The position numbers and the translations under genes are program-made. Positions 2,841 through 45,694 of a stretch of 48,903 nt of DNA are shown piece by piece. Numbering within the stretch: position 1 is the stretch's first letter; each line of letters starts with the position of its first letter. Where the stretch lies: NCBI GenBank assembly GCA_022791355.1, contig JAAVYX010000098.1:1-48903 (forward strand), written 5' to 3'. Source of the DNA: Clostridiales bacterium. GTDB taxonomy: Bacteria > Bacillota > Clostridia > Oscillospirales > Acutalibacteraceae. The notes under the pieces were generated by a model. It made no database searches, had not been told where the DNA came from, and saw nothing but the letters and a program-made list of their open reading frames with translations.

Positions 2841-2907
2841 GGAACCTATCTTTTGTATGATTGGACTGGAGACGCACAAAAATTTTACTTTGCAAGGCAA
2901 AGCGTAG

Positions 2908-3102
2908 AAAATAAAGTTTTCGCCCGCCTTTTTTAAAAGGCGGTGGGGTCGAGGGGCAAGGCCCCCGTCGCGTCCCGCAGGACGCGAAATCCCTAAGGAA
3001 ATAGAGCGCAGGAAGGGAGACGTAAACCTTCCTGGGGAAGGTTTACGTCCGGGAAACCCTCGCCGGGGGTTTCCCGATGCGGCGCAAAGCGACGCATAAG
3101 AA
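2908..3102 (+). repeat. Repeat family A copy 1 (A1)
   Basis: aaataaagttttcgcccgccttttttaaaaggcggtggggtcgaggggcaaggccccc...gcgacgcataaga. Confidence 0.9.
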
Positions 3103-8709: not shown

Positions 8710-8851
8710 TTCGCGAAGCGTAAATTTTTGCGAGGGGCTCGAACGCTCCTCACAGAGGATCCCATGCGGGAAACAATGTAGAGACGCTTTAGCGACGCGG
8801 CCGCCGGAACAACCCTAGGCTGTTCGCTTAGACGCCCCGCAGCGAAATCTA
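8710..8851 (+). repeat. Long repeat of family B (B1)
   Basis: Left end TTCGCGAAGCGTAAATTTTTGCGAGGGGCTCGA, right end GACGCCCCGCAGCGAAATCTA; 5' flank TTTA; interior matches B2 at 24572-24746 (inverted). Confidence 0.8.
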
Positions 8852-8928: not shown

Positions 8929-9176
8929 TTTTATGCGTCGCTGCGCGCCCCATTGGAGAACCCCCGGCGAGGGTTCGGCCGAAATCTTCCAAAGGAAGAT
9001 TTCGGCTACCCGCGCCTTACGTTTCTATACGCGAAGCGTAAATTTTTGCAAGGCCCTCGATGTGCGGAACGAAAATCTAAGGATTTCGCGTCCTGCGGGC
9101 CGCGACGGGGCCTTGGCCCTCGACCCCACCGCCTTTTAAAAAAGGCGGGCGAAAACTTTTTTATTTGCTATCGCTT
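8929..9176 (-). repeat. Repeat family A copy 2 (A2), interrupted by a 52-bp B-short element
   Basis: Reverse complement closely matches A3 at 40335-40518 except for a 52-bp insertion. Confidence 0.9.
9028..9079 (+). mobile_element. 52-bp B-short element inserted in A2
   Basis: Empty site CGTTTCTAAGG (reverse complement of 40417-40427) versus CGTTTCTA[52 bp ending AAAATCTA]AGG. Confidence 0.85.
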
Positions 9177-10871: not shown

Positions 10872-11067
10872 CGTTACGCAGCGGCACGGCGCAGGCAAAA
10901 CCGGCCCCGCTGGCTCCCTTTTTTGTCGTGGGGAAAAGGGGGAGCCGTGCCTTACAATACGGGAATGGGACAAAACGCAGGTAGGCTTGACGCGAACCCT
11001 TCCGTTCCGTAAAAGAATGACCATTTCATAAAATTCGCAAACAAAAATGGAAAGAGGAGACCTTGGG

Positions 11068-12492
11068 ATGAAACTGGGAATGTCTGTAACGGCTGTGGCT
11101 ACAGCCGCCGCCCTTATGGCAGGCGCTTGCGCTCCGCCCTCGGCCGCGGCGGCCGGCGACGGGGACAAGCCTGTTCTGACCTGTACCGCCGCCCAGGAGT
11201 GGACCGCCCTGTTTGACCGGCGGGAGCAGTCCTCCCGGACCTGGCTTGGGGCCGACGGAATCTATACCGCCGCCCTAAACGGCAACGACGCCTTCTCCAG
11301 CGCGGACAGTCGGACAAAAACCTTTTTTATTTTCAGCGATACGCTCATGGGTACTTCCGACGGGACCGGCAAGGTTACCGGCGGCTACGCCATGCCCAGT
11401 CACACCTCCGCCCTGCTCGCCGGCAGCGCGCCGGACCCCGGCCGCCTGCGGTTCGTTTACGGAAAGGGCGGCGATATGACGGTTGGCAGCTCTCTCTTCG
11501 GCGAGAGAAAATGGATGCTGGATTGCTTTGTAACCGGCGGCGCTCTCTATATATTCGGCTTTACCCCCTCCGGGGACTGGAAGCCGGAAAATATCGATCT
11601 GTTTCGGATTCCCATACGGGACGGCGAACCGGATTACCCTTCCTATACCAAGACCGCCGATATCCGGCAGCTCTGGTACCGCACCCCCGACGACCGTTAT
11701 CTCTACGCCTACGGCATGGGCGCGACCCTGAACACGGCTGCGGCCGGCGCGCCCGATCCGGACGGGTATATCTATATTTACGGCTATCGGGACGCGATGA
11801 AAGAGTGGTCCCGCAAGGACCTGCTTGCAGCCAGGATCAAGGAAACCGATTTCCCGGATTTTTCCAAGCTCCGCTACTGGGACGGCGCGGGATGGAGCGA
11901 CGACATAGAGGATTCGGCGGTGCTGCTGTCCGCCGTATCCTGTGAAATGAGCGTAACGCCGGTCGCATCCGGCCCCTACAAGGGCAAGTATATCGCCGTG
12001 TATACCAACAATACCCAGGGTCCCGAAATGATGTACGCCATAGGGGATTCCCCTGTGGGACCCTTTGACACGCCGGTGCAGTTTTATGCCGCCCCCGAGC
12101 ACGATACCCCCAGCGCCGACGGGGCCGGCACCCGGTATACCTACAACGCCAAGGCCCATCCCCACCTGTCCGGCGACGGCAAGCTGCTGGTTTCCTATAA
12201 CTGTAATATGCGGGACGGCCAGCAGTATTCGACCGACTATCATCCCCGCTTTCTCTGGCTGGATTTAGACCCCGCTCAAGCCCCGCCGGAGGACCCCTGC
12301 CCGGGCGACCTGGACCAGGACGGAAAGACGACCATTTCGGACGTAATGGAAGCCTGCAAGATTTTGGCCCGACAGCCGGCGGGCGTGTTCCCTACCACGG
12401 AGGAGCTGGCCAGGGCCGACCTGAACGGCGACGGTAAGGTTACCATCGAGGATGTGATGGAAATCTGTAAGATTCTCGCCAGACAAGGATGA
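11068..12492 (+). CDS. Secreted protein (DUF4185-like) with C-terminal type I dockerin
   Basis: Signal peptide-like N-terminus; two Ca-binding repeats LDQDGKTTISDVMEACKILARQ and LNGDGKVTIEDVMEICKILARQ. Confidence 0.8.
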   Translation: MKLGMSVTAVATAAALMAGACAPPSAAAAGDGDKPVLTCTAAQEWTALFDRREQSSRTWLGADGIYTAALNGNDAFSSADSRTKTFFIFSDTLMGTSDGTGKVTGGYAMPSHTSALLAGSAPDPGRLRFVYGKGGDMTVGSSLFGERKWMLDCFVTGGALYIFGFTPSGDWKPENIDLFRIPIRDGEPDYPSYTKTADIRQLWYRTPDDRYLYAYGMGATLNTAAAGAPDPDGYIYIYGYRDAMKEWSRKDLLAARIKETDFPDFSKLRYWDGAGWSDDIEDSAVLLSAVSCEMSVTPVASGPYKGKYIAVYTNNTQGPEMMYAIGDSPVGPFDTPVQFYAAPEHDTPSADGAGTRYTYNAKAHPHLSGDGKLLVSYNCNMRDGQQYSTDYHPRFLWLDLDPAQAPPEDPCPGDLDQDGKTTISDVMEACKILARQPAGVFPTTEELARADLNGDGKVTIEDVMEICKILARQG

Positions 12493-18264: not shown

Positions 18265-18280
18265 CTTGTAATGGGTATTA

Positions 18281-18436
18281 CACGCTTTGCGTGCATTTTT
18301 GCGAGGCCCTCGATGGGTCGAGCGAAAAACTACACGCTTTGCGTGCATTTTTGCGAGGCCCTCGATGGGTCGAGCGAAAAACTACACGCTTTGCGTGCAT
18401 TTTTGCGAGGCCCTCGACGAGCCGAGCGAAAACCTA
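18281..18436 (+). repeat. Head-to-tail array of three 52-bp B-short elements
   Basis: Period exactly 52: units at 18281-18332, 18333-18384, 18385-18436 (CACGCTTTGCGTGCATTTTTGCGAGGCCCTCGATGGGTCGAGCGAAAAACTA). Confidence 0.92.
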
Positions 18437-18490
18437 AACGTTTTGCGTGCATTTTTGCGATAGGCTCTAGCGCCTTGTATGCTTACGTCC
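18437..18490 (+). repeat. Left end of a fourth, diverged long B-type element
   Basis: AACGTTTTGCGTGCATTTTTGCGATAGGCTCTAGCG; right boundary not resolved. Confidence 0.6.
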
Positions 18491-24512: not shown

Positions 24513-24571
24513 TGCTTTGTCTTGCAAAGCAAAATATTTGTGAGGCCCTCGATGGGCCGAATGAAAATCTA
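24513..24571 (+). repeat. B-short element (59 bp, extended terminal stem)
   Basis: TGCTTTGTCTTGCAAAGCA...TGAGGCCCTCGATGGGCCGAATGAAAATCTA; 5' flank GCTA. Confidence 0.85.
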
Positions 24572-24746
24572 TAGATTTCTCTGCGGGGTGTCTAAGCGAA
24601 CAGCCTTGGGCTGTTCTGGCGGCCACGGCGCAAAAGCGCCTCTGGTCGCTTCCCACAAGGGACGCCAGAAAGAGGTTTGGCTAAAGGCCAAACTGGGAAC
24701 CTCTGTGAGGAGCGCTGGAGCCCCTCGCAAAATTTATGCATAGCGT
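24572..24746 (-). repeat. Long B element (B2), right end joined to right end of the preceding B-short element
   Basis: TAGATTTCTCTGCGGGGTGTCTAAGCGAACAGCC...GAGCGCTGGAGCCCCTCGCAAAATTTATGCA; inverse of B1. Confidence 0.8.
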
Positions 24747-24829
24747 ATGATAAAGACAATCGCAGGGCGGAGGAGGCCAGCGGCTTTCTTCCCGCCAAAA
24801 AACAGCGCGCAGTATAGGGAGGGGCGGAT

Positions 24830-36244: not shown

Positions 36245-36321
36245 GGGAACTGGCAGGGAACTGGCAGGGAACTAGCAGGGAACTAGCAGGGAACTAGCAG
36301 GGAACTAGCAGGGAACTAGCA
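36245..36321. repeat. Seven perfect or near-perfect 11-bp tandem repeats
   Basis: (GGGAACTGGCA)x2 (GGGAACTAGCA)x5. Confidence 0.97.
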
Positions 36322-36650
36322 GCGTTCTCGGATGTAGGCGGGCGACAGATAGCCGCTCAAAGGGCGGCTAGAGAAGGCCGCTCAAAGAGCGGCCGTCAGT
36401 AGCCTTCCTTTAGGACGGCCGCCAGGTAGCCGCTCTGCCGAGCGGCCCGCGTACCCAGCCTCGCTCCGCTGCCTTTCCCACGGCTGCCAAGACAACGCGG
36501 CTTGCGGCAATTTTATCCCCGTAAAACCGTATGATACCTTGTCAATCGATGGAAGATACCCCGAACAAAAGACTTGTCAGCCGGAAAGCGCACCAAAGAA
36601 TGGATAAAATTTTGTGAATTATTGGGTAAAATTTAGACAAAGGAATGGTA

Positions 36651-40163: not shown

Positions 40164-40331
40164 TACTTTGCCGTGCAAAGCAAAATTATTGCGAGGGGCT
40201 CTAGCGGCGTGCTTTGCTGTGTCCCGGTCTGGCGTTCCTTGCGGGAAGCAATGTAGAGGCGATTTAGCACCGGGACGCCAGCCGTCAGAACGTCCTTTGG
40301 ACGTTCATATAGATGCGCCGAACAAAATCTA
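40164..40331 (+). repeat. Long B element (B3)
   Basis: TACTTTGCCGTGCAAAGCAAAATTATTGCGAGGGGCTCTAGCG...CAAAATCTA. Confidence 0.8.
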
Positions 40332-40334
40332 TTG

Positions 40335-40518
40335 AAATAAAGTTTTCGCCCGCCTTTTTTAAAAGGCGGTGGGGTCGAGGGGCAAGGCCCCCGTCGTGGC
40401 CCGCAGGACGCGAAATCCTTAGAAACGTAAGGCGCAGGTAGCCGAAATCTTCCAAAGGAAGATTTCGGCCGGACCCTCGCCGGGGGTTCCCCGATGGGGC
40501 GCGCAGCGACGCATAAGA
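40335..40518 (+). repeat. Repeat family A copy 3 (A3), uninterrupted
   Basis: aaataaagttttcgcccgccttttttaaaaggcggtggggtcgaggggcaaggccccc...gcagcgacgcataaga; same layout as A1 and A2. Confidence 0.9.
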
Positions 40519-40574: not shown

Positions 40575-40845
40575 CCTGGCATCCCGCCGCCGCGCCTCTA
40601 CCTGGAGGTCCGCGGCGCTAACGCGCCTCTACCTGGCGACCGCGGCGCTAAAGCGCCTCTGGCTGGAGGTCCGCGGCGCTAACGCGCCTCTACCTGGAGG
40701 TCCGCGGCGCTAAAGCGCCTCTGGCTGCTTCCCGCCAGGAACTTACATATCTGGCCAACGGCCGGAACGGGACGAGGGAAAGCGTTCGGCCAAAGGTCCA
40801 TACCAGAAGACCCTGGAGGGGCTCGACGCCCCGCAGAGAAATCTA
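40575..40845 (-). repeat. Long B element (B4) containing a 30-31-bp hairpin tandem array
   Basis: Units from 40601: cctggaggtccgcggcgctaa(c/a)gcgcctct(a/g) x4 plus one degenerate; distal end GAGGGGCTCGACGCCCCGCAGAGAAATCTA; left end of the element not clearly resolved. Confidence 0.7.
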
Positions 40846-42138: not shown

Positions 42139-42392
42139 TAGATTTCTCTGCGGCCCATCTATAGGAACGTCCAAAGGACGTTCTGAGGTCTGGCGACCGC
42201 GGCGCTAAAGCGCCTCTACCTGGCGGTCCCGGTGCTAAAGCGCCTCTACCTGGCGGTCCCGGTGCTAAAGCACCTCTACCTGGCGGTCCCGGTGCTAAAG
42301 CACCTCTACATTGCTTCCCGCAAGGAACGCCAGACCGGGACACGGGAAAGCAAGGCGCTAGAGGGATTCGAAAAAATCTACGTCATTTTTCT
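42139..42392 (-). repeat. Long B element (B5) containing a four-unit 30-bp hairpin tandem array (42190-42308)
   Basis: TAGATTTCTCTGCGGCCC...(cctggcggtcccggtgctaaagcrcctcta)n...gcttcccgcaaggaacgccag; outer boundary approximate. Confidence 0.75.
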
Positions 42393-44070: not shown

Positions 44071-45237
44071 ATGTTAAAAAAGATGAGATCCGTCGCCGCC
44101 GCTGTCGGGCGCGTCCTGCGCAGCCGTTCGGCCGTCGCCGCCGTGCTGGCCGTAGCTGGAACCGCCACTGTTGTGACGGTGAGCGCTTCGGCGCAGACCG
44201 TGGCTATATACGACGGGGAAGAGGTTCGCACCATTCGTACCTTCAGCAGCGACCCTGAAACCATCCTGCATCAGGCCGGCGTCAAATTTGCGGACGACGA
44301 CCTGATCGCCATGCGGACCGACGCCGGCTATCCCGCCGTGACCCTGACCAGGGCTTTCGACGTGACCGTTACCGCCGGCAATGAAACCTATGCCTACCGT
44401 ACCACCGGCGGCACCGTCGATCAGGCGTTGCAGGAGCTGGGATTACAGATTGGCGAGCACGACCTGGTCAGCGCTGAACTAAGCGACCGTCTCTCGCCCG
44501 ATATGTATATCGACGTCATTTCGGTCGACTATGAAATGATCACCCAAGAGGTCCCCATCAGCTATCAAGCTACTACCGAGTATACCGCCAGCCTGGCCGC
44601 CGGTCAGACTAAGGTGTCCGAGGGCGAGGAGGGGATCAAGCGCGTCACCTATCGCAATAAAATGGTCAACGGCCAGCTGGCCGAAAGCACCGCTGTGGAA
44701 GAAACGGTTATCAAGGAGCCTGTCCATCAGAAGACGCTGGTGGGCACCAAAACCGAAAAGCAGGCCGTCAAAACCACGACTGCGAAGAAACCTAGCAGCA
44801 GTTCATCCAGCAGCAAGTCAAGCAGTTCGTCCAGCAATAAATCCAGCGGTACGACCCAAACCAGCGCCGACGTTAAGACCGTTTCCACCCTCCAGCCCGA
44901 CGCGCCCATCGCCTTGGACTCGAAGGGCCGTCCGGTTAATTACTCCAAGCTGATTACCGGTAAGGCTACCGCCTACACCGCCCCCATCGGCTCGGCCACC
45001 TCTACCGGCCGGGGCGCTCGGACGGGGTATGTGGCGGTTAATCCCAAGCAGATTCCTTATGGAACCCGCCTGTTCATCCGCACCACCGACGGCAGCTATA
45101 TCTACGGTTACGCTGTGGCGGCCGATACCGGAGATTTTGTAAAGAAGGGCCGGATTACAGTGGACCTTTTCTTTAATTCCGAGGGCGAGTGCCGGACCTT
45201 TGGCGTTCGAAATGTGGAAATCTACGTACTGGACTAG
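44071..45237 (+). CDS. YabE-like cell-wall protein: ubiquitin-like DUF348 repeats, G5 domain, 3D (lytic transglycosylase-like) domain
   Basis: DGEEVRTIRTFSSDPETILHQAGV; VEETVIKEPVHQKTLVGTK (G5); GKATAYTAPIGSATSTGRGARTGYVAVNPKQIPYGTRLFI...AADTGDFVKKGRITVDLFF. Confidence 0.9.
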   Translation: MLKKMRSVAAAVGRVLRSRSAVAAVLAVAGTATVVTVSASAQTVAIYDGEEVRTIRTFSSDPETILHQAGVKFADDDLIAMRTDAGYPAVTLTRAFDVTVTAGNETYAYRTTGGTVDQALQELGLQIGEHDLVSAELSDRLSPDMYIDVISVDYEMITQEVPISYQATTEYTASLAAGQTKVSEGEEGIKRVTYRNKMVNGQLAESTAVEETVIKEPVHQKTLVGTKTEKQAVKTTTAKKPSSSSSSSKSSSSSSNKSSGTTQTSADVKTVSTLQPDAPIALDSKGRPVNYSKLITGKATAYTAPIGSATSTGRGARTGYVAVNPKQIPYGTRLFIRTTDGSYIYGYAVAADTGDFVKKGRITVDLFFNSEGECRTFGVRNVEIYVLD

Positions 45238-45267
45238 CTTTTATCGTTTCCAAATACAAATATGTTT

Positions 45268-45303
45268 AAGGGCGGGAAGATTTTTCTTTCCGCCCTTGTT
45301 TTT
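45268..45303 (+). terminator. Rho-independent terminator after YabE-like gene
   Basis: AAGGGCGGgaagatttttctttCCGCCCTTgtttttt. Confidence 0.85.
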
Positions 45304-45694
45304 TGCCTATACATGATGCGCCCCCTGATTCCGTTGGGCATAGGGCGGATACAGTCTTATTAAGTGGTATGGCAGGAAATGCAATCGTTGGGTTATCCGC
45401 CGGCAAGGCAGATGTTCCAACGGGCGGGGAGATCCGGACGGCCTGCGAATGCGCCTACCGACGGCCGTCCGGCAAGGCGGCTCAGACTGCAAAGAGAATT
45501 TTGATGCGGCATACCGCGCCGTATGGGGCCCCGACGAGGATTCCCGCGCAGGCGCCTTCCAGGGGAAGATCCGGCATGAGGCTTTCCGTCCATACGGAAG
45601 GCGAACGGAGGACCTTGCCTCTCGGCCCCGCGCCTTTTTCAAAAGAGGGGCAAAACCATTTTGAAATATTTTACAGAATAGCTTTTAACAAGCG

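Follow-up and report, generated by a model that had tools for sequence, protein, structure and literature searches.

Known small palindromic repeats and the element B

Tiny palindromic repeats are common in bacteria, and the manner of their spread is mostly open. The SDR of cyanobacteria are very small mobile repeats without coding capacity, which are also found inside other repeats. The element described here, designated B, is tiny, noncoding, mobile and nested in other repeats like these SDR, and it differs from them in belonging to another phylum. Cyanobacterial small dispersed repeats are cited as SDR in a passage of PMC3116915. The closest described systems are the REP, BIME and REPIN sequences with their TnpA-REP (RAYT) enzymes, and the IS200/IS605 elements (PMC8266576, PMC6006769, PMC2817692, PMC3116915); REPs are described as high-copy, mostly intergenic, species-specific imperfect hairpins of 20–50 nt with a conserved internal mismatch, and the REPs of these papers are mostly proteobacterial.

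B is a unit in which a first hairpin (H1), one base, a second hairpin (H2) and the trinucleotide CTA follow one another. It resembles the REP/RAYT systems in being a high-copy and extragenic palindrome, imperfect and built of a basal stem, an internal mismatch, an upper stem and a short loop, in occurring as single copies and in tandem and inverted arrays, and in having no coding capacity; on its bottom strand, TAG lies directly before the H2 hairpin. In contrast to REPs, the tetranucleotide at this position is mostly ATAG or TTAG instead of GT[AG]G, the unit includes H1 as a second hairpin, the better-folding strand carries CTA at its 3' end, and the host is a Firmicute in whose genome no RAYT was found. 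The bottom strand reads NTAG, and among the 29 strictly single copies N is G in two (C at position +1 of the top strand); since the GT[AG]G test thus failed and no RAYT was found, B is not filed as a REP. With IS200/IS605 elements and PATEs it shares the absence of terminal inverted repeats and target duplication, hairpins at the ends, and insertion after a short motif resembling the last bases of the element, whereas it is only about 50 bp long with its hairpins back to back, differs at its ends, by eye, from the two resident IS200 elements, and possesses neither spacer nor guide tetranucleotide, H1 starting directly after the flank. DDE-type MITEs differ from B by having terminal inverted repeats and a target duplication of fixed length. 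B probably acts in the same way as a REP or a minimal IS200/IS605 element.

The 52-base insertion in repeat A

The window, that is, the whole stretch of 48,903 nucleotides that was analysed, comes from a gut bacterium akin to Candidatus Howiella and holds three copies of a repeat designated A, one of them with B inserted:

8929-9176, plus strand: host repeat A2, with B inserted after ...CGTTTCTA (genome search with A2, filled/empty comparison)
9028-9079, plus strand: B-short, the nested insertion of 52 bp, with H1 at 9028-9040, H2 at 9042-9076 and the terminal CTA at 9077-9079 (filled/empty comparison; match to structure model R1 at E 1.4e-11 in the whole genome, this copy being part of the training set)
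40335-40518, minus strand: repeat A3, B site empty (filled/empty comparison, A copies)
2899-3102, minus strand: repeat A1, B site empty (genome search with A2, filled/empty comparison)

The initial annotation had described A2 and A3 as near-identical save for 52 extra bases in A2, and this holds: read on the plus strand, A2 shows about 94% identity over the A sequence to the reverse complement of A3, with a single insertion at 9028-9079, such that the filled junction CGTTTCTA-(52 bases)-AGG corresponds to the empty site CGTTTCTAAGG. A search of the genome's own contigs with A2 (2.33 Mb, 271 contigs, 76% complete) gave about 30 A repeats. Eighteen copies are without insertion at the A2 point (on contigs C112, C142, C179, C18, C191 (twice), C194, C2, C20, C212, C214 (A1 and A3), C220, C227, C246, C264, C267 and C27), while a B element sits at the same site in A2 and on C185, C39 and C67, the latter three filled by longer B forms; on C90 and C196 only the 3' end of B is visible there. 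Repeat A, a hairpin chain of about 180 bp, is a genus-level family in two Howiella species, and was not found in 28 other relatives searched. In the sister species, Candidatus Howiella intestinavium (locus L145 is 78% identical to the MnmE of the window), genome G001, which we take to be of this species, gave 23 matches to A, and B was not found by the structure model.

The 18 empty copies, together with a B-free sister species that carries A, indicate that the empty state is ancestral and that the 52 bases were gained. The opposite course, foreseen in the initial annotation, by which the 52 bases were ancestral in A and were lost from A3, draws on nothing beyond the A2/A3 pair itself and has to contend with the same empty copies, with the sister and with B at many unrelated sites; a deletion in A3 was rejected, and an ancestral segment is barely credible. 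A lack of other mobile-looking copies, likewise foreseen, was not found either, as the genome contains at least 82. The mobile unit nested in A therefore stands, the more so because dozens of B copies have settled in unrelated places and repeat D provides another system of filled and empty sites. The nearest relatives of filled A copies, compared by their right halves, are mostly empty (C39/C194, C90/C18, C196/C227, A2/A3), which favours repeated insertion at one site; the H1 loop GAA is common to the B copies within A, so that some conversion or co-amplification is likely.

Repeat D (GGAAATCC..GGATTTCCGGGAGGCGCGTCTTTT..) is found on C14, C17, C33, C42, C44, C93, C111, C121, C187, C198, C211, C215 and C266, and has two sites, B-filled in some copies and empty in others. 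The join in D is a good palindrome, GGAAATCC-GTA-GGATTTCC or similar; this site is empty on C93, C198 and C33, filled on C44, C14 and C121, and holds an inverted B on C42 and C211. B copies in plus orientation at D site 1 have GCGTATATTTTT in common, and the left junction TTTTACT at site 2 is common to six D copies. Such common junction and loop features in A and D point to composites spreading as units, and the spread within both repeats may in part be due to A+B and D+B composites being co-amplified or passed on by gene conversion, not to fresh transposition.

Copy number, size classes and arrangement

A covariance model gave at least 97 matches in the genome at E ≤ 0.1, at least 82 of these at E ≤ 0.001, with 150 of 1800 candidates scored, and a motif scan gave 81 matches in the fetched stretches; more than 60 copies outside the R1 training set also match R1. 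The family comprises about 80–100 copies in this genome. Contigs that start or end in or near B were noted (C17, C42, C49, C94, C118, C147, C211, C247 and C266), and with so many such ends the count of copies is probably too low, and B probably causes breaks in the assembly. B is extragenic within the window, its position elsewhere being judged by crude ORF calls only. Besides the copy in A2, the window contains:

8710-8851, plus strand: B-long, with the same ends and extra hairpins in the H2 loop (motif scan; ends read off the sequence)
18281-18436, plus strand: three B units of 52 bp in tandem, 18281-18332, 18333-18384 and 18385-18436, each joined to the next at CTA (repeat analysis, model matches)
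24513-24571, plus strand: 59-bp form of B with a longer H1 (motif scan, model match)
24572-24747, minus strand: inverted B-long, tail to tail with the preceding copy at a CTA/TAG junction (motif scan, sequence)
40164-40331, plus strand: B-long immediately preceding A3 (motif scan, sequence)
42139-42385, minus strand: B-long whose interior contains 30-bp hairpins in tandem; the outer end has decayed and the right limit is approximate (repeat analysis, sequence)

B copies are found singly, in tandem arrays, as inverted pairs, and within repeats A and D. Head-to-tail copies sharing CTA occur at 18281 in the window and on C231, C193, C24 and C271, tail-to-tail copies at 24571/24572 and on C33, and head-to-head copies on C24, C89, C61 and C41. 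The recurrence of the 52-bp length at 18281-18436, pointed out at the outset, was borne out by an array at 18279-18460 of period 52 (3.5 copies, 95% matches) with three joined units, followed from 18437 by a fourth that is a longer, decayed B-long. The 52-mer represents only one of several size classes, as the family has forms of 52, 59 and 85–250 bp. In B-long both ends are kept, the extra hairpins lie between TC and GAT of the H2 loop, and the interiors show tandem expansion of 30–31 bp hairpin units. Tandem 30–31 bp hairpin units (GGCGCTAAAGCGCCTCTACC...) were seen at 40591-40727 and at 42200-42309, the latter inside B-long. No gene could fit in any B, the largest credible copy of the fetched stretches measuring about 250 bp, and an autonomous B with an internal gene was rejected. 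Elsewhere in the window, 36245-36322 is a near-perfect 11-bp tandem repeat, GGGAACTAGCA, in seven copies, and 45136-45307 weakly matches the leader of ribosomal protein L20 (31 bits, under the gathering score).

Fold of the element

H1 consists of a 5-bp stem and a 3-nt loop (TACGC-NNN-GCGTA) or, in the 59-bp form, of a 19-nt variant with a 7-bp stem and a 5-nt loop; H2 comprises 8 bp, a conserved tandem G.A/A.G mismatch, 5 bp and the loop TCGAT. This fold is supported by compensatory changes, with a covariation score of 0.290 compared to 0.170 ± 0.017 in shuffles (0/500) and seven pairs changed on both sides, and the consensus fold is reproduced by the energy model (z −4.8). Among 52 distinct copies, pairs 27-37 and 28-36 swap between C-G and G-C and pair 22-42 between T-A and C-G, and the T20-G44 wobble and the G.A/A.G mismatches of H2 are near-invariant. 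The copy at 9028-9079 has itself decayed, with poor pairing in the upper stem of H2. The top strand is better folded than the bottom strand in 48 of the 52 copies with RNA parameters and in 40 with DNA parameters; selection thus seems to act on one strand. A search of the window with Rfam 15 gave no match at A or B at E up to 5, and a known RNA family was rejected for B.

Target sites and junctions

The 5' flank of B is TA in 32 and YA in 40 of 48 distinct non-tandem copies (background 5% and 10%, respectively), and the distinct insertion places number a few dozen, counted from single sites and the two D sites. Where the left flank is not CTA, the 3' CTA is retained in 25 of 35 copies, and left and right trinucleotides agree in only two of the 35. 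The junctions are therefore independent and the 3' CTA is part of the element, which means that there is no target-site duplication; one of CTA, TA or TATA was rejected because the two junctions vary independently, as do the first bases of H1 and the right flank. The ends had been read as being without terminal inverted repeat, which is right, to which can be added that the element consists of two hairpins and a CTA end; with no inverted repeat in the sequence and no duplication on junction comparison, B is not an ordinary DDE MITE, as had been argued.

A weak symmetry (A-rich, TA^TA, T-rich) is visible in the 29 strictly single copies. Stems of at least 6 bp occur at the join at 4 of 35 sites, compared to 1.2% expected (0/1000, or 37/1000 without repeat D); palindromic joins outside D include GAAATGCTA^GCATTTC on C146 and GATGTA^CATC on C165. 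A first, wider-loop palindrome test at the joins was negative, and a palindrome centre as general target rule, being significant only with repeat D, was rejected.

Distribution

Gene order matches a contig of the sister species across window positions 1-29400. The ftsW-PBP gap measures 743 bp with B here and 41 bp without B in the sister, the parB-parA gap about 580 bp with B compared to 260 bp without, and the jag-mnmE gap contains the B array in this genome but, in the sister, an A copy with an empty site; since the intergenic DNA is too diverged for exact empty sites to be read, these orthologous gaps were compared by length and content. A gene for a DUF4185 and dockerin protein (window 11047-12492) occupies part of a gap of about 2.5 kb, which in the sister measures about 300 bp. 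The B model gave no match in 150 other genomes of the family and 396 of the order, searched with stricter filters and few candidates scored per genome, and the exact B pattern is absent from GTDB r220 contigs and from IMG/VR, where records very near this genome may be hidden. A wider distribution or carriage by phages has no support from these searches, and B appears private to this species, as judged from one genome of the species.

Proposed mechanism and alternatives

Because no gene fits inside even the longest B, movement in trans is indicated; the statement that B must be mobilised in trans stands as a fair inference, although no mobilising enzyme was identified. Six Y1 matches are present in the genome, two of them well preserved, on C35 (cut by the contig end) and C49, whose TnpAs stay under the RAYT cut-off and by score belong to the IS200/IS605 transposases. 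A RAYT, the gene of which usually lies beside REPs, did not turn up in the assembly, which is 76% complete. The end hairpins of the resident IS200 elements, compared by eye, are unlike B, and B as a piece of such an end was rejected; retrotransposition was rejected as well, no reverse transcriptase being found in the genome. With no RAYT found in this incomplete assembly and with resident IS200 ends unlike B, a Y1 mover is no more than a candidate.

What is observed for B is its anatomy, covariation, fold strand polarity, insertion polarity, target preference, lack of inverted repeats and target duplication, arrays and lineage-restricted distribution. The reading that we tentatively prefer, at somewhat short of an even chance, is that of a non-autonomous element of two hairpins and CTA, which a Y1 (HUH) transposase moves in trans in single-stranded form; we infer the single-stranded intermediate and the class and source of the enzyme. 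The folded top strand is what the enzyme would recognise; its cuts would follow the CTA of B and, in the target, a YA (TA or CTA being best), and the two would be joined without target duplication, in the manner of REP/RAYT or of minimal IS200/IS605 ends. A resident B would serve as a good target, as it ends in CTA, which would give head-to-tail arrays, and nesting in A and D would follow wherever these repeats offer a YA-type site. Reading of one folded strand would lead one to expect the top-strand bias, and IS200-type Y1 transposases are present in the genome. Against the Y1 model are the lack of space between left flank and H1 in which a guide tetranucleotide could lie, the absence of the REP signature GT[AG]G, the failure to find a RAYT, the occurrence of one IS200-type Y1 TnpA also in the B-free sister, and the weak two-sided symmetry at the target, for which we know of no need in Y1 enzymes.

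This symmetry in the 29 single copies, and the excess of stems at the join, would be more natural for another kind of enzyme (a DDE transposase, a recombinase of the serine or tyrosine type, or some unknown nuclease) whose target is a short and weakly palindromic A-rich-TA^TA-T-rich sequence, in some cases a palindrome centre; yet B has neither inverted repeats nor target duplication, and the palindrome effect is largely due to repeat D with a negative wider test, so that such an enzyme is possible but not probable. The loop GAA in A-nested copies and the shared D features, GCGTATATTTTT at site 1 and TTTTACT at site 2, could stem from gene conversion, slippage, which can enlarge tandem arrays, and co-amplification of intergenic repeats, with few or no transpositions. 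That B spread mostly in this way is unlikely, considering that dozens of copies in unrelated flanks obey one target rule and that filled A copies mostly have empty nearest relatives. Less likely still, B would be primarily a regulatory element or a functional RNA, such as an attenuator or a processed transcript, which has been copied around the genome and is mobile only incidentally. The strong top-strand fold with G.U and tandem G.A pairs would suit such a role, as would the mild excess of copies oriented with both flanking frames (22 vs 8 against, by crude ORF calls); on the other hand, B has no Rfam match and lacks the T-run of an intrinsic terminator, it is missing at the same gene pairs in the sister, and tandem, inverted and nested copies are atypical of a gene.

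Implications

A further view, which we consider improbable, sees B as the elementary unit of a so far unrecognised class of mobile DNA that lacks an enzyme of its own, targeted to TA at the centre of a small palindrome or in a hairpin loop by a non-Y1 process. If true, hairpins would land in the loops of others (B in A, B in D, hairpins in the B loop), and intergenic regions would grow in Russian-doll fashion. The B family as such offers dozens of target sites, two host repeats with filled and empty copies, and a B-free sister with conserved gene order. With these, tests of what transposes, of the rule for its targets and of what moves it become possible beyond the well-studied REP systems of proteobacteria.
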